Both the position numbers and the translations under genes were made by a program. From Pseudomonas sp. VD-NE ins (GTDB lineage Bacteria; Pseudomonadota; Gammaproteobacteria; Pseudomonadales; Pseudomonadaceae), in contig NZ_CP134772.1 in assembly GCF_031882575.1 (NCBI RefSeq), positions 4,830,501 through 4,894,500 on the forward strand: a stretch of DNA of 64,000 nucleotides, in the 5' to 3' direction. The notes below the pieces were generated by a model. That model had not been told where the DNA came from. It saw only the letters and a list, made by a program, of their open reading frames with translations, and searched no databases. Below are positions 3,964-55,190 of the stretch, piece after piece (the stretch's first letter is position 1; each line of letters starts with the position of its first letter).

Positions 3964-5508
3964 TCAGTTCGCCACGCCGTCAGCGCGGTGGCGCGGCAAA
4001 GCCAGTTGCAGCAGGTTGGATTCATTGGCCTGGTCGCGGCTGATTTCGCCGCGCAGGGCGCCTTCGCAGAGCACCAGAATGCGGTCGGAAATGCCCATCA
4101 CTTCCATCAGATCGCTGGACACCACGATCACCGAAATGCCGTCGGCGGCGAGGTTATGGATGATCTGGTAGATCTCCGCTTTCGCACCGATGTCGATGCC
4201 GCGTGTCGGCTCGTCGAGCAGCAGCACCTTCATCGGCATCGACAGCCAGCGGCCGAGAATGGCCTTCTGCTGGTTGCCGCCGGAAAGGAACTTGATCTGC
4301 TGACCGGCGTGCGGGGTTTTCACTTTCAGTGCCTTGATCTGTTTGTCGGCGTTGCCCTTTTCCCACAAGCCGCGAATCAGGCAACCGAGGCCGGAGTTGG
4401 CACCGCGCGCACTGATGTTGATGTTCTCGGCAACGCTGGCGAGCGGGATGATGCCTTCCTTCTTGCGATCCTCCGGACAGAGCAAAATGCCCGCCGCAAT
4501 CGCGTCGCGCGGTGAGCGCAGTTTCAATTCATGACCGCGCAATTCGAGGCGTCCAGCGGTGTTGCGTTCCAGCCCGCTGAGCAGGCGAAACAGCTCGGTG
4601 CGCCCTGCCCCGACCAGTCCGAACAGGCCGAGAATTTCGCCTTTGTGCGCCTCGAAACTGACCGGTTCACGCAGGCCCGGGCCAAGCAGCCCAGATACCT
4701 TCAACGCGACGGCGCCGCGTGGACGATGGCGGTAATCGTAGATGTCCTGAATGTCGCGCCCGACCATGCAGGTCACCAGTTGATCGTGGCTCAACTGACT
4801 CATGTCCTCGAAGGTGCGCACATAACGACCGTCCTTGAACACCGTCACCGCGTCGCAGATGCGGAACACTTCTTCCATGCGATGCGAGACATAGAGCACC
4901 ACTTTGCCCTCGTCACGCAGACGGCCGATGATCGCCATCAAGCGGTCGATCTCGCGCGCCGAGAGGCTGCTGGTCGGTTCGTCGAAAGCGATGACGTGGG
5001 CGCCGCGCGACAGCGCCTTGGCGATTTCCACCAATTGCCGCTGACCGAGGGACAGGCGTCCGACTTTGGTCTGCGGGTCGATTTCATCGGCCAGGCCTTT
5101 GAGGCAGTTCAACGCTTGCTGACGCAGGACACCGCGATTGATCAAACCGAAACTGGCCGGCAGATGGCCGAGGAACAGGTTTTCGGCGACGGTCATTTCC
5201 GGCACCAGATGCAGCTCTTGGTGAATCACTGCGACGCCGCTGCCAATGCTGTCGGCGGTCGATTTGAACGCCATGGTCTGCTCGCCGATCTGCAACTCGC
5301 CGCTGCTCGGGATGTAAGCGCCGCCAAGGATTTTCAGCAGGGTCGATTTGCCGGCACCGTTCTCGCCCATCAAGGCGTGAACCTGGCCGGGATGGGCGAC
5401 GAAGCTGATCGCGTCCAGCGCTTTCACGCCGGGAAAGGTTTTGCCGATCCCGTTGAAGCGCAGGCTGCCGCCGGAGCTGTGTTGTTGTGTCTGTACTTGC
5501 GCGTGCAT
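3964..5508 (-). CDS. araG: L-arabinose ABC transporter ATP-binding protein AraG
   Basis: This 514-residue protein is a double ATPase with two fused nucleotide-binding domains that power L-arabinose import. The first half has Walker A GENGAGKST, signature LSLGQRQ and Walker B VIAFDEPTSS. The second half has a degenerate Walker A (GLVGAGRTE), signature LSGGNQQK and Walker B LLLDEPTRG. The asymmetric second P-loop is normal for sugar importers of the RbsA/AraG type. A GAGG ribosome site precedes the ATG at 5508. A strong hairpin in the 53-base gap from araF probably sets the ratio between binding protein and ATPase. Confidence 0.93.
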   Translation of the reverse strand: MHAQVQTQQHSSGGSLRFNGIGKTFPGVKALDAISFVAHPGQVHALMGENGAGKSTLLKILGGAYIPSSGELQIGEQTMAFKSTADSIGSGVAVIHQELHLVPEMTVAENLFLGHLPASFGLINRGVLRQQALNCLKGLADEIDPQTKVGRLSLGQRQLVEIAKALSRGAHVIAFDEPTSSLSAREIDRLMAIIGRLRDEGKVVLYVSHRMEEVFRICDAVTVFKDGRYVRTFEDMSQLSHDQLVTCMVGRDIQDIYDYRHRPRGAVALKVSGLLGPGLREPVSFEAHKGEILGLFGLVGAGRTELFRLLSGLERNTAGRLELRGHELKLRSPRDAIAAGILLCPEDRKKEGIIPLASVAENINISARGANSGLGCLIRGLWEKGNADKQIKALKVKTPHAGQQIKFLSGGNQQKAILGRWLSMPMKVLLLDEPTRGIDIGAKAEIYQIIHNLAADGISVIVVSSDLMEVMGISDRILVLCEGALRGEISRDQANESNLLQLALPRHRADGVAN

Positions 5509-5532
5509 AAAGCCACCTCTTCACACCGAAAC

Positions 5533-5554
5533 ACGGCCCGGCTGCCCGGGCCGT
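5533..5554 (-). promoter_or_regulatory. Intercistronic hairpin between araF and araG
   Basis: A perfect 9-bp inverted repeat, ACGGCCCGG and CCGGGCCGT, is separated by a 4-base loop just after the araF stop. There is no U-run, so it is not a canonical terminator. Such structures behind binding-protein genes commonly stabilise the upstream message and lower downstream expression, which would fit the excess of periplasmic AraF needed over AraGH. Confidence 0.7.
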
Positions 5555-5561
5555 CGCGGCA

Positions 5562-6566
5562 TCAGTTCCACAGGCCGATTTTTTCCAGCTCTTGCTTGAA
5601 GTTCTCGCGCGTGATCAGGGTGACATCGTCCATCGCGGTGTACTTCGGCGGTTCTTTGCCGGTGGTGACCCACTCGTACATCATCTCTGCGGTCTTGTAG
5701 CCTTCGATGTGCGGGCTTGGCAGCATCGAGCCGAAGAAGCCGCTGTTGGGCTTTTTCAGTTCGCCGATGGCGTCAGTGCCGTTGATGCCGATGCCGATCA
5801 CGTTGGCCGCCGCAAAACCGGCGGCTTCGGTAGCGCGTACGCCGCCAAGCACGGTGTTGTCGTTCATACCGCCAATGATCAGGTTTTTTGCGCCGCTCGG
5901 CAGTTTCACCAGTGCCGAGTTGGTCGCGTCCATGCTGCCCGGTACGTCGAGGGTTTTCAGCGCGGCGAACAGAATGTGATCCTTCGGCATGCCGGCGTCT
6001 TCGAGGGACTTCACCGAGCCGTCGGTGCGTTTCTTGCCGGTGTCGAGCTCGTTGTAGGTGTTGACCACCGCGTAGGTGTCTTTCCAGTCCCAGTTGCGTT
6101 TTTTCGCTTCGGCGACCATGGCGTTGCCCTGCTTCTGGCCGACTTCGAACGCGGCCATGCCGAGGTACGGCACGTCTTCCATGAACTTGCCGTTGGCGTC
6201 GACGAAACGGTCATCGACGGCAATCACTTTCAGGTCATTGAGTTTGGCTTTGGCCATGATCGCCGGGCCGAGCGAGACGTCCGGCGGGCAGATCACAAAG
6301 CCCTTGGCGCCGTTGGCGGCAAGGCTGTCGATGGCCGAGAGGGTTTTCTCGCCATCCGGCACGGCGATCTTGATCAGTTCGAAGCCCTTGTCCTTGGCGG
6401 CTTTCTCGGCGAAAGCCCACTCGGTCTGGAACCACGGTTCTTCCGCCTGCTTGACCAGAAAACCGATTTTCACGGTGTCGGCAGCGAGCAGCGCACTGCT
6501 CAGGCTGAACGCGGTAACCGCCAGGGCGGCACTGCACAGGGTACGAATCCCGAAACGACGTTTCAT
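5562..6566 (-). CDS. araF: L-arabinose-binding periplasmic protein AraF
   Basis: This 334-residue substrate-binding protein delivers L-arabinose to AraGH. A Sec signal peptide (MKRRFG, hydrophobic core, ALLA-A cleavage near residue 28) precedes two Rossmann-like lobes starting with TVKIGFLVKQAEEPWFQTEW, which resembles the opening of E. coli AraF. Other family blocks include VDDRFVDANG and IGGMNDNTVLGGVRAT. I chose the ATG at 6566 because AAGGAG lies 7 bases upstream and the signal peptide begins there; an open frame extends 21 codons further. The leader holds a candidate GntR operator at 6651-6664. Confidence 0.93.
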   Translation of the reverse strand: MKRRFGIRTLCSAALAVTAFSLSSALLAADTVKIGFLVKQAEEPWFQTEWAFAEKAAKDKGFELIKIAVPDGEKTLSAIDSLAANGAKGFVICPPDVSLGPAIMAKAKLNDLKVIAVDDRFVDANGKFMEDVPYLGMAAFEVGQKQGNAMVAEAKKRNWDWKDTYAVVNTYNELDTGKKRTDGSVKSLEDAGMPKDHILFAALKTLDVPGSMDATNSALVKLPSGAKNLIIGGMNDNTVLGGVRATEAAGFAAANVIGIGINGTDAIGELKKPNSGFFGSMLPSPHIEGYKTAEMMYEWVTTGKEPPKYTAMDDVTLITRENFKQELEKIGLWN

Positions 6567-46720: not shown

Positions 46721-49168
46721 ATGCTGTTGTTGTGGATACTGGTTTTGATCGTTGGTGTGGCGTATCTCGCCCACCGGCGTACTGCCCCGCTGCCCGCGTT
46801 GGGCATCGTGGCCGTCTACCTGCTGGCGATGGGTATTTTCAGTCACGCGCCGGGCTGGTTGTTGCTGGTGTTCTGGGTGCTGCTGGCGGTGGTCGCTGCA
46901 CCGTTGCTGCTGCCCGACCTGCGCCGCAAACATTTCACGGCGCCGCTGTTCAGCTGGTTCCAGAAAACCCTGCCGCCGATGTCGCAGACCGAACGCGACG
47001 CGATCGATGCCGGTACCGTCTGGTGGGATGGCGAGCTGTTCAGCGGTCGTCCGGACTGGGACAAACTGCTGGCCTATCCCAAGGCGCAACTGAGCGAAGA
47101 AGAACAGGCGTTCATTGACGGCCCGACCGAGGAACTCTGTGCCATGGTCACCGACTGGCAGATCGGCCAGTCGATGGACCTGCCGGCCGAAGCCTGGGCA
47201 CATATCAAGGAACACGGTTTCTTCGCCCTGATCATCCCGAAAGAATTTGGCGGCAAAGGCTTTTCGGCTTACGCCCACTCACAGGTGGCGATGAAACTCG
47301 CTACCCGTAGCGGTGACCTCGCCTCCACCGTCATGGTGCCCAACTCCCTCGGCCCGGCCGAACTGCTGCTGCATTACGGCACCGACGAACAACGCAATCA
47401 CTACCTGCCACGGCTGGCCCGTGGCGATGACATCCCGTGCTTCGCCCTCACCGGTCCGCTCGCCGGTTCCGATGCCGGAGCGATGCCCGACACCGGGATC
47501 ATCTGCAAAGGCCAATGGGAAGGTCAGGAAGTCATCGGTCTGCGCCTGAACTGGGAAAAACGCTACATCACCCTCGGCCCGGTCGCTACCCTCCTCGGCC
47601 TGGCTTTCAAGGCCTACGACCCGGAACATCTGCTCGGTGACAAGGAAGACCTTGGCATCAGCCTCGCGCTGATTCCGACCGACACCGCAGGCGTGGAAAT
47701 CGGCCGTCGTCACTTGCCACTGGGTGCAGCATTCATGAACGGCCCGAACTCGGGCAAAGACGTGTTTATCCCGCTGGACTTCCTCATTGGTGGTCAGGAA
47801 ATGCTCGGCAAGGGCTGGATGATGCTGATGAACTGCCTGTCGGTCGGCCGTTCGATCTCGTTGCCGGCGGTCGGCACTGGCGCCGCCAAGTTCACCAGTC
47901 TGGTCACCGGTCAGTACGCGCAGATTCGTGAGCAGTTCAACGTGCCGCTATCGGCGTTCGAAGGTATTCAGGAGGCCATGGCGCGCATCGGCGGCAACGC
48001 GTGGATGATGGACGCGGCGCGGATGCTCACCGCCAACGCAGTGGACCTCGGCGAGAAACCGTCGGTGCTGTCGGCGATCCTCAAGTACCACCTCACCGAG
48101 CGCGGCCGCGAGTGCATCAGCCACGCCATGGATGTGCATGGCGGCAAGGCGATCATCATGGGCCCGAACAACTACCTCGGGCGCAGCTGGAACGGTGCAC
48201 CGATCTTCATCACCGTGGAAGGTGCGAACATCCTGTCGCGCAACCTGATGATCTTCGGTCAGGGCGCGATTCGTTGCCATCCATTCGTGCTGAAGGAAAT
48301 GGCTCTGGCCGGTCGCGAAGACAAGGATCAGGCCCTGAAAGAGTTCGATGGCCTGCTGCTCAAGCACATTGGTTTCGCCGTGAGCAATGCCGCCAGCACG
48401 CTGGTGTTGAACCTCGGTTTCGGCCACTTCGAACATGCGCCGGGCGACAAGATCAGCCAGGGTTATTTCCGCGCGCTCAACCGTCAGGCAGCGGCGTTCG
48501 CCATGCTCGCCGACTTCAGCATGATGCTGCTCGGCGGCGAGTTGAAACGTCGCGAACGCCTATCGGCACGCTTGGGTGATGTGCTGAGCAATCTGTATCT
48601 GGCCTCTGCCGCACTCAAGCGTTACCACGACCTGGATTCGCCGGCGTACATGGAACCGCTGTTCCGTTGGGCGATGGAAGAAAGCCTCGGCCAATCGGAA
48701 CGGGCGCTGGATGAATTGCTGCGCAACTTCCCGAACAAAGTGTTTGGCTGTCTGTTGCGCGCCATCGTCTTCCCGTTTGGTCGTCGTCACAAAGGCCCGT
48801 CGGACAAACTCGGTGCCGAAGTGGCCGGCGTCATTGGTCGCGCCAAGGGCGATCCGGCGCTGGAAGAGCTGCTTGCCGGTTGCTATCGCCCGCAATCGGC
48901 AGATGATGCGGTCGGGGCATTGCAACACGCCAGCGATCTGCTGAATGCCGCGCAGCCGTTACACAAAAAACTGCACACCTCGCTGAAAAGCGGTCAGGTC
49001 AAACCGGTCGCGGGTGAACACGCCATCGATGCGGCGCTGGAGGCCGGGGTGTTGCAACCGGTGGAAGCGCAAAGCCTGCGCGATGCCGAAGCAGCGCGAC
49101 GCAAGGTGATCGATGTCGATGATTTCGACAAAGAGGAGCTGGCGCTCGCAGAGGGCAAAGTGCGCTGA
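46721..49168 (+). CDS. fadE: Acyl-CoA dehydrogenase FadE
   Basis: This 815-residue FAD enzyme catalyses the first step of fatty-acid beta-oxidation. Two N-terminal membrane helices (about residues 1-22 and 27-60) anchor it, followed by the acyl-CoA dehydrogenase domain (CFALTGPLAGSDAGAMPDTG) and a FadE-specific C-terminal extension. Length equals that of E. coli FadE (814). A GGAGG site precedes the ATG. The downstream small gene is close and co-directional. Confidence 0.94.
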   Translation: MLLLWILVLIVGVAYLAHRRTAPLPALGIVAVYLLAMGIFSHAPGWLLLVFWVLLAVVAAPLLLPDLRRKHFTAPLFSWFQKTLPPMSQTERDAIDAGTVWWDGELFSGRPDWDKLLAYPKAQLSEEEQAFIDGPTEELCAMVTDWQIGQSMDLPAEAWAHIKEHGFFALIIPKEFGGKGFSAYAHSQVAMKLATRSGDLASTVMVPNSLGPAELLLHYGTDEQRNHYLPRLARGDDIPCFALTGPLAGSDAGAMPDTGIICKGQWEGQEVIGLRLNWEKRYITLGPVATLLGLAFKAYDPEHLLGDKEDLGISLALIPTDTAGVEIGRRHLPLGAAFMNGPNSGKDVFIPLDFLIGGQEMLGKGWMMLMNCLSVGRSISLPAVGTGAAKFTSLVTGQYAQIREQFNVPLSAFEGIQEAMARIGGNAWMMDAARMLTANAVDLGEKPSVLSAILKYHLTERGRECISHAMDVHGGKAIIMGPNNYLGRSWNGAPIFITVEGANILSRNLMIFGQGAIRCHPFVLKEMALAGREDKDQALKEFDGLLLKHIGFAVSNAASTLVLNLGFGHFEHAPGDKISQGYFRALNRQAAAFAMLADFSMMLLGGELKRRERLSARLGDVLSNLYLASAALKRYHDLDSPAYMEPLFRWAMEESLGQSERALDELLRNFPNKVFGCLLRAIVFPFGRRHKGPSDKLGAEVAGVIGRAKGDPALEELLAGCYRPQSADDAVGALQHASDLLNAAQPLHKKLHTSLKSGQVKPVAGEHAIDAALEAGVLQPVEAQSLRDAEAARRKVIDVDDFDKEELALAEGKVR

Positions 49169-49242
49169 TCCTGACAACCATGTCCAAGAGGGCGCAGGAG
49201 CTTTATACTCCCGCGCCCGTTTTGCTCTTGAGGACTTATCTC

Positions 49243-49650
49243 GTGTCCAACGTCGTTGCCGATCATCTTGTGTTGCTCGACCACCTGCGCAGTATCCTGG
49301 TCGCCGTAGGTGAGGCCGAACAGGTTCCCGAAGAAAGCCATGCCCTGTTCCTGGAGCGCTTCGACGAACTGTTGGCATCGCTGCCGATCGATCCGATCGA
49401 AAGCCAGTACCTGGGCCAGGACATCCTGACTCAAGTGATTACTCGTTATCCGCAAATCGCCCACCTGATCCCGCGCGATCTGCTGTGGTTCTTCGCCGGT
49501 GACTGCCTGCATTACTTGTCCGATGAAGAGATCGACCTTTATCAGGCACTGGAAGAGCGTCGCTACGAAGCCGAACAGAACGATGAACCGTTCGACTGGA
49601 ACCAGGAAAAACAGCTGCTGGCGATGTCCGCTCAGGACAGCAAGCACTGA
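49243..49650 (+). CDS. Small conserved protein downstream of fadE
   Basis: This soluble, acidic protein of about 135 residues begins VSNVVADHLVLLDHLRSIL and contains LIPRDLLWFFAGDCLHYL. It looks like the small Pseudomonas family (PA2817-like) found beside fadE; function unknown. I chose the GTG at 49243 because GAGG lies 9 bases upstream and the conserved-looking part starts there; an in-frame ATG at 49180 would add 21 residues. Confidence 0.75.
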   Translation: MSNVVADHLVLLDHLRSILVAVGEAEQVPEESHALFLERFDELLASLPIDPIESQYLGQDILTQVITRYPQIAHLIPRDLLWFFAGDCLHYLSDEEIDLYQALEERRYEAEQNDEPFDWNQEKQLLAMSAQDSKH

Positions 49651-49671
49651 TACAACTGGTTGGGTGAAGGT

Positions 49672-49752
49672 CAAAAGATCGCAGCCTTCGGCAGCTCCTA
49701 CAGTGGACTCACGCAATCCTCTGTAGGAGCTGCCGCAGGCTGCGATCTTTTG
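49672..49752. repeat. REP pair between converging genes
   Basis: Inverted units AGATCGCAGCCTTCGGCAGC and facing copy lie between the fadE-linked gene and the LysR gene. It may act as a two-way terminator. Confidence 0.9.
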
Positions 49753-49760
49753 TTTTTGCG

Positions 49761-50759
49761 CTACAACAACCCTTCACTTTCGGGCAATTCATACGCCATC
49801 GCCGCGTTGCTTTCCCCCACTGATTTGCCGGGCTTGCTCAAGGTCGGCTCTTTTTCCAGACACTCCACCAGATAGTCGATAAACACCCGCAACTTCGGTG
49901 GCAGATAGCGTGTGGGCGAGTGCAGCAACCACAATCCGCCGTGATAGGACGCGAGGAACGTCCAGTCCGGCAACACCTGCACCACCAACTTTTGCTCAAG
50001 CGCGTAACGGGCGGTGAAATACGGCAGGCTGCCGATGCCGATGTGCTGCAACACCGCGCCCAGCCGCACGCCGGTGTGATTGGCGGCATAGCGACCACGC
50101 ACCCCTACCGTCACCGCCTTACTGCCCTTCTTGAATTTCCAGCGCGCATCGCTCGGGGTTTCCCCCAGATAAATACAACTGTGATTGAGCAAATCATGCG
50201 GGTGAGTCGGTGTGCCGTGCTCGGCCAGGTACTGCGGCGTGGCACAGAGCAAGTGGTCGATGGTCAGCAATTGCCGCCCGACCAGCCCGGCCGGTGGTCG
50301 ATCCGTAATACGAATGGCCAGATCGACATGGTCGTCGATCAAATCGACCTGACGATCCTCCAGCAACAACTCGACATCGACCTTGGGATAACGCCGCAAA
50401 AACTCGGGCATGTGCGGATGAATCACGAAGCGCCCCACTGCTTTCGGCACGCTGACGCGCACCAGCCCCTCCGCTTCGTGAGTGAACTGGCCACTGATTT
50501 CCATCACCGACTTGGCTGCGCTGACCATTTCCTGGCAGCGCTTGAACACCTCCTCGCCGCCGTCACTCAAGCGCAGTTTGCGCGTGGTGCGCTGCAAGAG
50601 CCGCGTGGCCAAGGCTTTTTCCAGCCGCGAAATACTGCGGCTCACCGCTGAGGGCGATGAACCCAATTGCCGAGCCGCTTCAGAGAAGCTGCCGGTCTCC
50701 ACGACCTTGACGAAAATCGCCATTTCACCGAGCAACGGTAGCGGCAGATTGATGCTCAC
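49761..50759 (-). CDS. LysR family transcriptional regulator
   Basis: This 332-residue regulator has an N-terminal helix-turn-helix (about residues 8-65, SFSEAARQLGSSPSAVSRSISRLE) and a periplasmic-binding-like effector domain. It is divergent from the alaX-like gene with only 90 bases between, the classic layout for a LysR protein that controls the neighbouring unit, here an editing protein, an oxygenase and a LysE exporter. I chose the GTG at 50759 (VSINLPLP) because AAGGA lies 10 bases upstream. Confidence 0.87.
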   Translation of the reverse strand: MSINLPLPLLGEMAIFVKVVETGSFSEAARQLGSSPSAVSRSISRLEKALATRLLQRTTRKLRLSDGGEEVFKRCQEMVSAAKSVMEISGQFTHEAEGLVRVSVPKAVGRFVIHPHMPEFLRRYPKVDVELLLEDRQVDLIDDHVDLAIRITDRPPAGLVGRQLLTIDHLLCATPQYLAEHGTPTHPHDLLNHSCIYLGETPSDARWKFKKGSKAVTVGVRGRYAANHTGVRLGAVLQHIGIGSLPYFTARYALEQKLVVQVLPDWTFLASYHGGLWLLHSPTRYLPPKLRVFIDYLVECLEKEPTLSKPGKSVGESNAAMAYELPESEGLL

Positions 50760-50849
50760 AGCGCACAAGTCCTTTGATGTTTGAACGGATTATCACGTTA
50801 TTGCACGATTCATATAATAAAAACAGAAACTTTAATAAGGGCATGGAAT
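50760..50849. promoter_or_regulatory. Divergent promoter region, LysR gene and alaX-like gene
   Basis: The 90-base A/T-rich spacer holds TATAAT at 50813-50818, a good rightward -10 placed 32 bases before the alaX-like start. The -35 region is poor, as expected for an activator-dependent promoter. Direct repeats TCACG and GCACG (50793-50807) lie where a LysR protein would bind. Confidence 0.55.
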
Positions 50850-51476
50850 ATGACGCTTCGCCTCTTTTTCCATAGTGATGACCTCAAGGCTAATGTGGAA
50901 GTCCTCGACTGCACGCCCCAAGAGAACGAATTCGCCGTGGTCTTGCGCGCCACGCTGTTTCACCCGCAGGGCGGTGGTCAGCCGTGCGATACCGGCTGGA
51001 TCGGCGAAAGCCAGGTACTGCGTGTGGTGCAGGAACCAGACCGGATCATTCATTTTGTTGACCGGCCGGTGGCGCTCGGCATGACCTGTATCCGCATCGA
51101 CGAACAGCGCCGAAACTTCAATACGCGGATGCATTCAGCCGGCCACTTGATCGGACATTTCGTGCAGGCGCTGGGCTGGATACCGATCAAGGCACATCAC
51201 TGGCCGGATGAAGGTCGAGTGCAATTCAAACCCGGCGATGCCGCGCAGGAAGTCGACGTCGAGACCGTTCAAACCGGTATCGAGCAGTGGATCGAGTCCG
51301 ACCTGCCGCGCCTGACCTCGCTGCGCGAAGGTGCGCGGGAAATCGGTTTTGGTGAACTGCCCGCCTACGGCTGCGGTGGCACCCATGTACGCAGCCTGAA
51401 GGATCTGGGCACAGTCACGATCGCGTCCCTTTCGCAGAAGAAGGGCACGCTGTCCGTCCACTACAACGTGGATTGA
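50850..51476 (+). CDS. alaX: AlaX-type aminoacyl-tRNA editing protein
   Basis: This 208-residue free-standing editing domain is homologous to the editing domain of alanyl-tRNA synthetase and hydrolyses mischarged tRNA. The zinc and catalytic residues H95 and H99 (HSAGH) and C175 and H179 (CGGTH) are all present, and the glycine-rich GGGQ at 41-44 marks the AlaX-M form, which lacks the tRNA-synthetase body. Family members clear Ser (or Gly) from tRNA-Ala. Its place before an amino-acid-type oxygenase and LysE exporter suggests it may instead protect against the oxygenase product; this is inference. I chose the ATG at 50850; the frame stays open 23 codons further. Confidence 0.88.
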   Translation: MTLRLFFHSDDLKANVEVLDCTPQENEFAVVLRATLFHPQGGGQPCDTGWIGESQVLRVVQEPDRIIHFVDRPVALGMTCIRIDEQRRNFNTRMHSAGHLIGHFVQALGWIPIKAHHWPDEGRVQFKPGDAAQEVDVETVQTGIEQWIESDLPRLTSLREGAREIGFGELPAYGCGGTHVRSLKDLGTVTIASLSQKKGTLSVHYNVD

Positions 51477-51550
51477 GCATTTCGGACGCTGCCTCGCGCA
51501 ACGTCCGACGCCGGGGAACCGCATTCGCAGGTTCCGTTGACTATCGATAG

Positions 51551-52336
51551 ATGGACCTAAAAAAAATGATGCTAGACGTCGAGCGTCTCGATGAGACGTG
51601 CATAAAAAAACTGGCCAACGAAGAAGTCCTCGCCATCCGCGTCAAAGGCTTTTTGCCTGAGCCGCTGGCCGTTCAGATTGGCGACAAGATTCTCGCTCCA
51701 GGCTTTGAGGGCTACATCAACGCACCGAGTATCGGTCGCATCGGCATGGCTTTCTACGAGGCGGAAAACCAGCCGCTGCTGATCGAGGACTACTTCGAAC
51801 GCGCCACCAGCAACATCGCTGAACTGCGTAATCGCTGCGCGCCCTACTCTTCACCGATCGACACCTTGCGCTGCATGCTCGACGAGTCCTGGCCGGCGGG
51901 CGCACACCTGGAAAACCTCTACGGCCGGAAAATGTATGTCGGCCTTTCGCGCGTGGTGAAACCCGGCGTGTGCTTCCTCGCCCATCACGACATCTTCGCC
52001 AAGGACGCCCCGGACAGCTTCCAGGCCCGCAGTCTGGAGGCGCAGTTCGCCTGCAACGTCTATCTGAACATGCCGACCGAGGGCGGTGCCCTGCAGATGT
52101 GGGACGACGACATCAGCCCGGATCAATTCGATGAAATGCGTGGCGACAGTTATGGCATCGAACCGGCGCTGCTCGGCCCTCCAGCACTCGAAGTGAGACC
52201 GCAACCCGGCGATTTCATCATGTTCAATTCGCGTCGTATGCACTCGGTGACCCCGGGTGTGGCCGATCCGCGTTTGAGCCTTTCCTTTTTTGTCGGCTAT
52301 CGCGGCAATGCTTCACCCCTGACCTACTGGAGCTGA
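51551..52336 (+). CDS. 2-oxoglutarate/Fe(II)-dependent oxygenase, possible free amino-acid hydroxylase
   Basis: This 261-residue protein has a complete facial triad: H145 and D147 in LAHHDIF, H231 in RRMHSV, and the 2-oxoglutarate-binding R241 ten residues later (DPRLSLSFF). A metal-binding Asp argues for hydroxylation rather than halogenation, where this residue is Gly or Ala. Size and pattern recall the BesD-like amino-acid halogenase/hydroxylase family, but this was not tested. The neighbours are an aminoacyl-tRNA editing protein and a LysE exporter whose start codon follows its stop by one base. The substrate is unknown. Confidence 0.8.
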   Translation: MDLKKMMLDVERLDETCIKKLANEEVLAIRVKGFLPEPLAVQIGDKILAPGFEGYINAPSIGRIGMAFYEAENQPLLIEDYFERATSNIAELRNRCAPYSSPIDTLRCMLDESWPAGAHLENLYGRKMYVGLSRVVKPGVCFLAHHDIFAKDAPDSFQARSLEAQFACNVYLNMPTEGGALQMWDDDISPDQFDEMRGDSYGIEPALLGPPALEVRPQPGDFIMFNSRRMHSVTPGVADPRLSLSFFVGYRGNASPLTYWS

Positions 52337-52337
52337 G

Positions 52338-52976
52338 ATGTATTCGAATTATCTGGGCGAGTTTCTGGCGCTGGCAACCATTCACTTTCTGGCCGTGGTG
52401 GCTCCCGGCCCGGACTTCGCGGTCACTATTCGCCAAAGCGTACGATTCGGCCGACTGGTGGGGATCTGCACGGCGCTGGGGATCGGCGCGGGGATTTCCG
52501 TGCACGTGCTCTACACACTGCTGGGGGTCGGGGCGTTGATGCACACCACCCCGTGGTTGCTGACCGTGGCCAAAGTGGTTGGCGGTGCTTACATCCTGTA
52601 TTTGGGTGTCAGCCTGTTGCGCAGCAAACCCAAATCGGCCATTGAAGGTGAGAAAACCAGCGAGGAACCGGTGGTTGAACAAACGCTGTTCAAAGCATTC
52701 AGTACCGGTTTTCTGACCAATGCGACCAACCCCAAGGCCACGCTGTTTTTCCTGGCCATTTTCACAACGATCATCAGCGCCGAAACACCTCTGCAAATCC
52801 AGGCGTTCTATGGTTTGTGGATGTGTTTTGTAAACGCGCTTTGGTTCGTGATCGTGGCGCTGTTTTTCTCAAGCAACAAAGTACGCCTGCTGTTCATGCG
52901 CATGGGGCATTGGTTCGAGCGCACCATGGGTGTGGTGCTGATCCTGTTTGCCGGTCGCTTGATGCTGTCGTGGTAA
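52338..52976 (+). CDS. LysE family amino-acid exporter
   Basis: This 212-residue protein has about five to six membrane helices and the family motif FLAVVAPGPDFAVTIRQS near the N-terminus, and GFLTNATNPKATLFFLAIF in the second half. LysE/RhtB proteins export basic or other amino acids. It starts one base after the oxygenase stop, so the two are co-translated, and it is the last gene before a terminator at 52994-53027. Confidence 0.93.
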   Translation: MYSNYLGEFLALATIHFLAVVAPGPDFAVTIRQSVRFGRLVGICTALGIGAGISVHVLYTLLGVGALMHTTPWLLTVAKVVGGAYILYLGVSLLRSKPKSAIEGEKTSEEPVVEQTLFKAFSTGFLTNATNPKATLFFLAIFTTIISAETPLQIQAFYGLWMCFVNALWFVIVALFFSSNKVRLLFMRMGHWFERTMGVVLILFAGRLMLSW

Positions 52977-52993
52977 GCAGTCGCAAAAACGCA

Positions 52994-53027
52994 AAAAAGG
53001 CCCGCCGAATCACTTCGGCGGGCCTTT
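52994..53027 (+). terminator. Terminator after the LysE gene
   Basis: AAAAGGCCCGCCGAA and TTCGGCGGGCCTTTT form a 15-bp stem around a TCAC loop, 20 bases after the exporter stop. The symmetric A/T flanks allow use in both directions. Confidence 0.93.
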
Positions 53028-53066
53028 TCTTTTATGCCCGATGACACGACCACAAATCGCGCATAC

Positions 53067-53095
53067 AAAAACGCCGCTCTGTTGAGCGGCGTTTT
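53067..53095 (-). terminator. Terminator of the tRNA operon
   Basis: ACGCCGCTC and GAGCGGCGT pair around a short loop with A-run and T-run flanks, 9 bases past the 3' end of the last tRNA. A near-copy lies at 53281-53308 between the second and third pair. Confidence 0.88.
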
Positions 53096-53103
53096 TGTGA
53101 ATA

Positions 53104-53179
<76 letters not shown>

Positions 53180-53181
53180 AA

Positions 53182-53257
53182 TGGCGTCCCCTAGGGGACT
53201 CGAACCCCTGTTACCGCCGTGAAAGGGCGGTGTCCTAGGCCACTAGACGAAGGGGAC
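53182..53257 (-). tRNA. tRNA-Glu(TTC), copy 3
   Basis: A 76-nt cloverleaf with GTCCCCT/AGGGGAC acceptor stem, anticodon TTC in CTTTCACG and encoded CCA. It lies 2 bases upstream of tRNA-Gly copy 3. Confidence 0.97.
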
Positions 53258-53280
53258 ACAGGCTACAACTTTCACTAATA

Positions 53281-53308
53281 AAAACGCCGCTCACTGAGCG
53301 GCGTTTTT
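53281..53308 (-). terminator. Hairpin inside the tRNA array
   Basis: ACGCCGCTCA pairs with TGAGCGGCGT, with A-run and T-run flanks, between the second and third tRNA pair. It nearly copies the operon terminator, so the third pair plus hairpin looks like a duplication of the second. Confidence 0.8.
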
Positions 53309-53314
53309 AGAATT

Positions 53315-53390
<76 letters not shown>

Positions 53391-53393
53391 AAA

Positions 53394-53469
53394 TGGCGTC
53401 CCCTAGGGGACTCGAACCCCTGTTACCGCCGTGAAAGGGCGGTGTCCTAGGCCACTAGACGAAGGGGAC
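53394..53469 (-). tRNA. tRNA-Glu(TTC), copy 2
   Basis: Same 76-nt sequence as the other Glu copies, anticodon TTC, 3 bases upstream of tRNA-Gly copy 2. Confidence 0.97.
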
Positions 53470-53573
53470 ACGCTACCCGGAACACATGGTGTGTGTTTCG
53501 GTGTCCAGATCCTTGCCCGAAGACTTGGTTCTGGTTTCACTCAGCACCGCCCGAAAGCGCTACTGTTTAAAAT

Positions 53574-53649
<76 letters not shown>

Positions 53650-53651
53650 AT

Positions 53652-53727
53652 TGGCGTCCCCTAGGGGACTCGAACCCCTGTTACCGCCGTGAAAGGGCGG
53701 TGTCCTAGGCCACTAGACGAAGGGGAC
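53652..53727 (-). tRNA. tRNA-Glu(TTC), copy 1
   Basis: Same 76-nt sequence, anticodon TTC. It is the promoter-proximal tRNA, about 60 bases from the -10 element. Confidence 0.97.
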
Positions 53728-54098
53728 ACACTACAACATTCACTCCCTGCCGCGCTTCGCTGTGTGCTTTACGCTGCAAGTGGCGCGCATTCTATGGATG
53801 GATTGAGAGGTCGTCAACCCCTTGATATAAATTTATTTAAATCAATGACTTCGACCTGCTTTACGGCAGCAATCAGGCTTTTCCGTCGCCCGACGATTGA
53901 CGCCTATATTCCGCCACTCGCCAAGACGCTATAGTCCACCCACAGTGATGGCAATCTGCACCCGCAGAGCCAGCATTCATATAAGCAGCGTGCGGCCGAT
54001 ACAGATTGAACCTGCCGATCCAACTCGTCGAGCGGCGCTAGGCGGCTAAATGCCCAGCCACTACACTCGCATGCGAACCCTATAAAGAGGTCTTACCG
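53728..54098. other. Spacer between tRNA array and the membrane-anchored protein gene
   Basis: About 370 bases hold the tRNA promoter (53789-53817), an A/T-rich upstream element (53820-53845) that may boost it, and the leader of the rightward gene at 54099 with AAGAGG at 54085-54090. No other gene is visible. Confidence 0.6.
53789..53817 (-). promoter_or_regulatory. Sigma-70 promoter of the tRNA array
   Basis: Read leftward, TTGACG (-35) and TAGAAT (-10) are 17 bases apart, followed by a G/C-rich discriminator (GCGCGCC) typical of stringently controlled stable-RNA promoters. An A/T-rich segment lies just upstream of the -35. Confidence 0.87.
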
Positions 54099-54869
54099 GT
54101 GACACCACTCATGATCACCCTGCTAGTCATAGCCGGGATCGCAATTCTGATCGCCATTGGCTACATGAACCATGTGGTGGAAAACAACAAACTGGAGAAG
54201 GCCCGCACCAAGGTCGAACTCAACGACCGCCTGCGTCGCTGCGGCGAACTGACCGAAACCTTCCCGGGCCAGTTCATGACCCCGGCACTCAAGCTGCTGC
54301 TGACCCGTCTGGAGCTGAACGTCTGCCAGCGCCTGCTGAACCTGGAAAAAACCAGCGTCACTACCAAAGCGCGCATCACCGAACTCAGCGCCCTGGTCGC
54401 CCAAGGTGAATCGATCCCGGTCAACAACCCACCGGCGCCGATCCTGACCGAAGCCAAAGCCAAAGACGTGCGCTTCCTGCTCGAAGCCCTCCACGGCCAA
54501 ATCACCCGCGCCGCCCACGATGGTTTCCTGCCACCAAACGAAGCCAAGCACTGGATCCGCGAAGTCCGCCACATTCTGGTGCTGCTGCACATCGAATTCT
54601 TCAACAACCTCGGCCAACAGTCCCTGCAACAAAACCAGCCCGGCCAGGCCCGCCTCGCCTTCGAACGCGGCGTGCAATACCTGCGCAAACAGCAGGATCC
54701 GCAGATCTACGCAGAACAACTGCAATACCTGGAAAAACTCCTGGCTCGCGCCAACGCCCAGGTCATGGACAAGATTGCACCGGTTGAAGGTGAAGAGAAC
54801 CAACTGACCGCCGGCCTGAAAGATGTAGAGGCCGATGCCGACTGGAAGAAGAAAGTGATTTACGACTGA
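54099..54869 (+). CDS. Membrane-anchored conserved hypothetical protein
   Basis: This 256-residue protein has one N-terminal membrane helix (about residues 4-22, LMITLLVIAGIAILIAIGY) and a cytoplasmic, charged, largely helical domain with coiled-coil-like character. Conserved-looking blocks are KVELNDRLRRCGELTETFPG and WIREVRHILVLLHIEFFNN, and a repeat-like segment near ARLAFERGVQYLRK recalls TPR helices. I do not recognise a known family. The GTG at 54099 follows AAGAGG by 8 bases; a hairpin terminator follows the gene. Confidence 0.8.
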   Translation: MTPLMITLLVIAGIAILIAIGYMNHVVENNKLEKARTKVELNDRLRRCGELTETFPGQFMTPALKLLLTRLELNVCQRLLNLEKTSVTTKARITELSALVAQGESIPVNNPPAPILTEAKAKDVRFLLEALHGQITRAAHDGFLPPNEAKHWIREVRHILVLLHIEFFNNLGQQSLQQNQPGQARLAFERGVQYLRKQQDPQIYAEQLQYLEKLLARANAQVMDKIAPVEGEENQLTAGLKDVEADADWKKKVIYD

Positions 54870-54888
54870 TTGCAGTTGTTGCGAGAGA

Positions 54889-54911
54889 AGCCACCGAAAG
54901 GTGGCTTTTTT
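54889..54911 (+). terminator. Terminator after the membrane-anchored protein gene
   Basis: AGCCACC and GGTGGCT pair around GAAA and are followed by TTTTT, 20 bases after the stop codon. Confidence 0.92.
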
Positions 54912-55190
54912 GTGGGCTCGCAGGAGTGAATCCGATACAAAACCGGTGAATGTGAGGAGGCCTTCGCGAGCAAGCTCGCTCCCACAGTTTTGAATGAGTG
55001 TATTCAGATAGAGATTGGCCGGCTGTCAGGTCGCCATCGCTGGCAAGCCAGCTCCCACAGGGTTTAAGTACATCCGGCAGAGATGAGCTGGCTGCAAGAC
55101 CGCGATCGCGAGCAGGCTCACTCCTACAGAAAAGCAAAAGCAACGCCCACCTCACAACCGCATCTGCTTCTCACCACTCAACAGGATGAG
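54912..55190. repeat. Cluster of single REP units
   Basis: Three single units of different families lie in 280 bases: TTCGCGAGCAAGCTCGCTCC at 54963, CCATCGCTGGCAAGCCAGCT at 55034, and a diverged TCGCGAGCAGGCTCACTCC at about 55107. None has a facing partner. No gene is visible. Confidence 0.75.

Follow-up and report, generated by a model that had tools for sequence, protein, structure and literature searches.

Four genes lie together in a 64,000-nucleotide stretch of the genome of Pseudomonas sp. VD-NE ins (contig NZ_CP134772.1, positions 4,830,501 to 4,894,500; hereafter the window). They encode a LysR-type regulator, an AlaX-type aminoacyl-tRNA editing protein, a 2-oxoglutarate (2OG)/Fe(II) oxygenase and a LysE/RhtB-family exporter. 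The host genome is a single contig of 6.70 Mb, in which the oxygenase is present once. A sequence-only reading of the window had placed the LysR gene divergently from three rightward genes, and an open-frame check recovered all four frames in that layout (Table 1). The AlaX gene starts with ATG at 50850. The LysR start is probably the GTG at 50759, as comparison with the Acidihalobacter frame indicates, and the family start of the oxygenase is probably Met6 at 51566, since the resulting 256 residues are the length of most listed relatives. The AlaX and oxygenase genes are separated by 74 bp, and the oxygenase and LysE genes by 1 bp.

Table 1. Features of the locus, with positions in the window
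Feature	Position	Strand	Remarks
LysR-type regulator, divergent	49761..50768	-	PF03466 131.5 bits, PF00126 73 bits (both above cut-off, profile search)
Promoter-like site TTATCA-17-TATAAT, LysR-AlaX spacer	50790..50818	+	TTATCA conserved as far as Acidihalobacter
AlaX-type standalone aminoacyl-tRNA editing protein, 208 aa	50850..51476	+	Zinc ligands and GGGQ intact
2OG/Fe(II) oxygenase	51551..52336	+	H145xD147, H231, R241; fold like WelO5 / N-substituted amino-acid dioxygenase
LysE/RhtB-family amino-acid exporter, 212 aa	52338..52976	+	PF01810 126.5 bits (cut-off 25.6); TIGR00949, homoserine/threonine efflux, 153.3 bits (below cut-off 183.95)
Terminator-like hairpin, 15 pairs, T-rich tail, 3' of LysE	52995..53028	+	3 found vs 3.3 expected in shuffles

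The AlaX, oxygenase and LysE genes form a real and conserved unit. All four genes were found by tblastn at 110 of 110 Pseudomonas loci, the AlaX match being partial in L099; these loci (80, L002-L081, and 30, L001 and L082-L110) come from two genome collections that may overlap. Outside the genus, AlaX and LysE adjoin the oxygenase at 18 of 18 orthologue loci, so that the co-occurrence expected by the sequence-only reading holds in Pseudomonas and beyond. Twelve of the 18 belong to g274, a different genus of the same family, two to Acidihalobacter, one to G938 of another gammaproteobacterial family, one to an Acinetobacter plasmid and two to replicons of a single Photobacterium strain, in both of which the oxygenase is interrupted. 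A LysR gene is adjacent in g274 and in Acidihalobacter; none was found next to the three genes in Photobacterium, G938 or Acinetobacter (NZ_CP068209). The Acinetobacter johnsonii plasmid is mobilizable and measures 6362 bp; it carries the three genes and a mobilization gene, and by eye its frames also include relaxase-like frames and a transposase-like fragment (the same plasmid is recorded under Achromobacter as well and was counted once). Lineages whose oxygenases are about 55-70% identical share the gene order, and over 20 loci AlaX, oxygenase and LysE covary in pairwise identity (Spearman 0.88-0.93), to which common descent contributes. Among the matches listed, no description of this gene combination was found in the open-licence literature.

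In the sampled genomes the oxygenase is uncommon outside Pseudomonadaceae. Matches were obtained in 21 of 148 genomes of the window's own family (16 of them close), in 7 of 343 of the family of G938 (close only in G938 itself), in 4 of 369 of a class sample at E 1e-20 (its own genome, one close and two distant) and in 4 of 398 of a phylum sample. None of 30 pattern matches among viral contigs encodes a relative, and the oxygenase DNA is without match in E. coli genomes.

Within the unit, AlaX forms the widely distributed core and the oxygenase is the gene often missing, an aspect that the earlier reading had overlooked. Among 298 Pseudomonas genomes, 62 contain both genes, none the oxygenase alone, 76 AlaX alone and 160 neither (oxygenase matches at 88-100% identity, AlaX matches at E up to 1e-25); AlaX thus occurs in 138 genomes, and not one of the 62 oxygenase genomes lacks it, as would be expected of a protector. 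At locus level, 39 of the 76 AlaX-only genomes and 32 of the 62 oxygenase genomes (L001, L082-L110, L138, L233) were read. In 36 of the 39, AlaX occupies the window's site, beside LysR, a PA2817-family gene and an acyl-CoA dehydrogenase gene. Seven of these retain an orthologous LysE 3' of AlaX (L196, L197, L205, L206, L207, L219, L226), and two loci elsewhere (L228, L229) have AlaX with a distant LysE. AlaX is interrupted in two oxygenase-free loci (L231, L232). A tblastn search of the 39 loci detected no relic of the oxygenase (best E 0.79) and did detect the control L233. In that locus (G072) the oxygenase copy at 4930-5700 has a single in-frame TAG, the locus being otherwise complete.

A DNA tree built from the flanking dehydrogenase gene of 73 loci leaves 24 of its 69 inner forks open; on it, presence of the oxygenase changes at least nine times and that of LysE eight times. 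Well-supported nested cases are L198 among L049, L051, L053 and L054, and L204 with L078. A LysR tree of 62 loci gives nine oxygenase presence changes, with 26 of 59 forks open. Median ratios of nonsynonymous to synonymous substitution rates (dN/dS) in full loci are 0.054 (oxygenase), 0.074 (LysE) and 0.118 (AlaX); those of the flanking dehydrogenase are 0.027-0.077. Loci without the oxygenase still show selection on AlaX, its medians being 0.123, 0.154 and 0.125 in three such groups.

Two alignments, of 16 and 11 rows and partly sharing members, show no variation in the zinc ligands of AlaX (H95, H99, C175, H179) or in its GGGQ motif, in agreement with the complete ligand set first noticed in the sequence. 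AlaX resembles solved AlaX-M proteins over most of its length (9iuw, E 8e-11, residues 14-190; 2e1b, E 3e-10, residues 17-190). It scores 68 bits against the AlaXM equivalog NF040865 (cut-off 300) and 20.8 bits against tRNA_SAD (cut-off 24); judged by these comparisons, it is a member of the AlaX superfamily and not of the AlaXM equivalog. In the host genome the AlaXM model finds AlaX and two larger frames of 897 and 652 residues, which are taken to be alaS and thrS, respectively. We do not favour a role for AlaX as substitute for a lost editing domain of alanyl-tRNA synthetase, because the putative alaS itself matches the AlaX model. AlaX proteins clear Ser-tRNA(Ala) and Gly-tRNA(Ala) (PMC11295145). 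The last gene, previously described as an amino-acid exporter, is confirmed as such at the family level by its PF01810 score, and lies below the cut-off for homoserine/threonine efflux proteins.

The residues of the HxD...H...R site of the oxygenase are invariant in a 35-row alignment, so that the site is indeed intact, and the protein matches PF13640 with 38 bits (cut-off 27). In a structure comparison the closest solved fold among the matches listed is WelO5 (5iqu), an alkaloid halogenase in which, unlike in the window enzyme, Gly replaces the metal-binding Asp. The next is an N-substituted L-amino-acid dioxygenase (3w20/3w21), which we take to be SadA; identity to WelO5 and 3w20/3w21 is 16-18%. 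The nearest NCBIfam family is the isoleucine dioxygenase HilA (NF041274), of which the oxygenase is not a member, as it scores 22.4 bits (E 6.5e-5), far under the cut-off of 500. The HilA model is matched at E 1e-5 in 9 of 134 Pseudomonas genomes, nowhere above the cut-off, and these matches are 35%-identical paralogues and not the window gene. A likeness to BesD-type halogenases had been suggested, and this did not hold: the metal-binding Asp is kept (D147) where the BesD frame of Streptomyces cattleya (L194 6498-7340, matching 6nie) reads HWG. The tblastn match in S. cattleya is an HxD gene beside BesD, presumably BesE, and not BesD; it is 30% identical to the window oxygenase over residues 102-261, and no AlaX was found near it at E 1e-5. 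BesD is not among the 50 structural matches listed for the oxygenase, which by itself proves nothing.

In addition, 27 loci of distant oxygenase relatives with about 25-37% identity were read (L117-L125, L129-L133, L167-L172, L178-L180, L182, L194, L195, L245). This set includes several near-duplicates from one clade, and an Embleya locus chosen since its AlaX match adjoined its oxygenase match; the contexts of other relatives (e.g. Chromobacterium, Halomonas, Pectobacterium) lie outside it. AlaX is adjacent in four loci (G593, Caballeronia, Undibacterium, Embleya) and was not found in the other 23. A single clade of AlaX-linked oxygenases including Caballeronia, Undibacterium and G593 is rejected by an approximately unbiased (AU) test (p 4e-6; tree of 27 rows with long branches, Embleya, Photobacterium and Cupriavidus left out). 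As the AlaX-linked enzymes are not one clade, the link has either arisen repeatedly or is old and often absent. The distant oxygenases often neighbour amino-acid genes, which supports the amino-acid connection that had been proposed for the enzyme. Their neighbours include LysE (L168), an aromatic amino-acid lyase (L118), a pyridoxal phosphate-dependent decarboxylase (L172), and EamA with a very long frame resembling a non-ribosomal peptide synthetase (L123). At L120 a cyclodipeptide synthase gene (PF16715, 28.4 bits, cut-off 27) and a major facilitator superfamily (MFS) gene stand beside the oxygenase; by eye, L121, L124 and L178 resemble this arrangement, and L167 has no PF16715 match. As a side observation, a second Pseudomonas oxygenase, about 35% identical, adjoins cyclodipeptide synthase-like and MFS genes at L120 (5858-7387), L124 (6491-8025), L178 and L179, with a gene nearby that by eye resembles a TonB receptor.

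A search with AlaX matched 29 plasmid records, of which 11 were read. The Salmonella plasmid pSA20021456.1 carries an operon of an adenylation domain, a carrier protein, a chlorinating enzyme (TIGR01762, 446 bits, cut-off 226), an AlaX homologue (28% identity; AlaXM 52 of 300 bits, no Pfam match), an EamA exporter and a thioesterase, with a phosphopantetheinyl transferase gene further along. This conjugative plasmid appears to hold an operon for a chlorinated free amino acid (L256 5251-12381; NZ_CP030220.1 103250-110380), found by megablast in no other plasmid record and without match in E. coli genomes. It is like the window locus in having an AlaX homologue and an exporter within an amino-acid-modifying operon, and differs in its carrier-protein pathway, PhyH-type halogenase, EamA exporter and only distantly similar AlaX. 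LysR, AlaX and LysE occur together without the oxygenase on the A. johnsonii plasmid NZ_CP065663, and LysE and AlaX are neighbours, again without it, on a Priestia plasmid. Klebsiella and Chimaeribacter have LysR-AlaX; in S. cattleya a distant LysE lies about 1.7 kb before a distant AlaX; and in Pantoea, A. venetianus and Cupriavidus AlaX stands among other neighbours. Since the neighbours vary in this way, an exporter is a common but not a constant companion of AlaX. In P. silvicola AlaX is interrupted, and in Cupriavidus oxalaticus (L248 4001-5168) a RidA-family gene lies 3' of AlaX.

The oxygenase never occurs without AlaX and AlaX often occurs without the oxygenase, an asymmetry that is the pattern of a poison and its antidote. 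We lean towards the view that the locus is a minimal amino-acid antimetabolite operon with self-immunity at the level of translation and with export, found amid immune non-producers. We infer its substrate, product, toxicity, tRNA target, transport and regulation as follows. The oxygenase would hydroxylate a free amino acid or a simple derivative of one, and the product, probably a serine/threonine-like beta-hydroxy amino acid, would be charged onto tRNA by some synthetase. AlaX would hydrolyse the mischarged tRNA, LysE/RhtB would export the product, and LysR would control the set, so that hydroxylation, editing and export would make up one pathway. A beta-hydroxy product would be in keeping with an AlaX editor, with an exporter of the threonine/homoserine-like kind and with an oxygenase in whose fold group an amino-acid hydroxylase is found. 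In oxygenase-free genomes AlaX would be retained for immunity, in some of them together with LysE.

Some known systems resemble this arrangement in part. Fluorothreonine is exported by FthC, and the S. cattleya fluorothreonine system shares with the operon the trans-editing of a self-made amino-acid analogue combined with an exporter. The precedent drawn in the sequence-only reading therefore stands for role and falls for family, since the editor FthB is ProXp-ST1-related (PMC11295145) and the window editor is AlaX. The hil operon of Pantoea and Pseudomonas likewise has a LysR gene, a PF13640 dioxygenase, which acts on free isoleucine, and in some cases exporter genes; unlike the window locus it carries HilB, HilC and HilP, and its operon legend names no editing protein (PMC3684760).

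Several observations weigh against the antimetabolite operon. Of the 138 genomes with AlaX, 76 lack the oxygenase, so that AlaX may have a wider role; no LysE was found near it in 30 of the 39 oxygenase-free loci; and several plasmid AlaX genes are listed with neither exporter nor oxygenase alongside. With many forks open in both trees, loss of the oxygenase is not proved over gain, and its absences may represent losses. Finally, WelO5, the nearest solved fold, acts on an alkaloid. The check for clustering with enzymes of non-amino-acid substrates thus came out mixed, as the next fold belongs to an amino-acid dioxygenase and HilA is the nearest NCBIfam family.

An unlikely alternative, in our judgement, is detoxification. 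A non-proteinogenic amino acid from outside (plant, insect or microbial) would be charged, cleared from tRNA by AlaX, exported by LysE, inactivated by the oxygenase and sensed by LysR, and the oxygenase-free genomes would hold a lighter version of the same defence. This would fit the wide occurrence of AlaX, the most widespread gene, and the purifying selection that persists on it without the oxygenase. It has a model in CtdA, a standalone editor encoded immediately upstream of the operon for canavanine degradation in P. canavaninivorans and R. leguminosarum (PMC10018355). Like AlaX, CtdA stands beside a small-molecule pathway; unlike AlaX, it has a B3/4 editing domain, and its pathway is degradative (PMC10018355). 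However, if the oxygenase destroyed the compound, some genomes should have it without AlaX, and 0 of 62 do; the clearest independent AlaX context, on the Salmonella plasmid, is a biosynthetic operon. It is mainly the poison-antidote asymmetry that leads us to rank biosynthesis with self-immunity above detoxification.

It is less probable still that the genes are independent neighbours under one regulator, with AlaX proofreading Ser-tRNA(Ala), the oxygenase acting on an unrelated substrate and LysE serving general overflow. AlaX does stand with LysR alone in many genomes, but gene order is kept over considerable divergence of the oxygenase and on a plasmid with little else, and the host already has a putative alaS matching the AlaX model. 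Synthesis tethered to tRNA, in which the oxygenase would act on a tRNA-esterified amino acid that AlaX releases and LysE exports, would account for the strict oxygenase-to-AlaX pairing and for the cyclodipeptide synthase gene, of a class using aminoacyl-tRNA, beside the paralogous oxygenase at L120, but is very improbable, as AlaX persists in genomes lacking the oxygenase, small molecules are the substrates of the nearest folds, and later oxidation of a diketopiperazine explains the synthase neighbour equally well.

If the antimetabolite reading is correct, it would tie standalone AlaX editors, to which annotation usually assigns a housekeeping role in proofreading, to chemical warfare or defence involving amino-acid analogues. 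A single chromosomal site presents the natural series of full operon, AlaX-LysE and bare AlaX. Editing-based self-protection is known already; new are the gene combination and this series of producers and putative immune strains. From the operon one would also expect common Pseudomonas of soil and plants to contain a hydroxylated amino acid that is yet to be discovered. More tentatively, and with considerable doubt, such AlaX proteins might constitute a general class of immunity proteins directed at secreted amino-acid poisons and acting on charged tRNA, in which a single enzyme would be the weapon, the editor its antidote and the exporter the means of delivery. Such sets, carried on chromosomes and on a 6.4-kb plasmid, would repeatedly give rise to immune non-producers among Pseudomonas, much as with bacteriocins.

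Two promoter-like sites were found in the stretch (1.2 expected); as this count and that of the hairpins are near the shuffled expectation, the promoter and terminator candidates rest on position, not on score. The TTATCA of the LysR-AlaX spacer is identical in all 18 aligned spacers, including Acidihalobacter (of 20 selected, two dropped out). An Rfam scan of 48000-55000 returned tRNAs and no other known RNA elements. We do not favour a functional tie of the operon to the downstream tRNA genes, which are for Gly and Glu and are more distant or unseen at other loci. These genes form three tandem tRNA-Gly(GCC)/tRNA-Glu(TTC) pairs on the minus strand (53104-53727); their copy number and distance differ among strains, and such variation may make the site prone to rearrangement.

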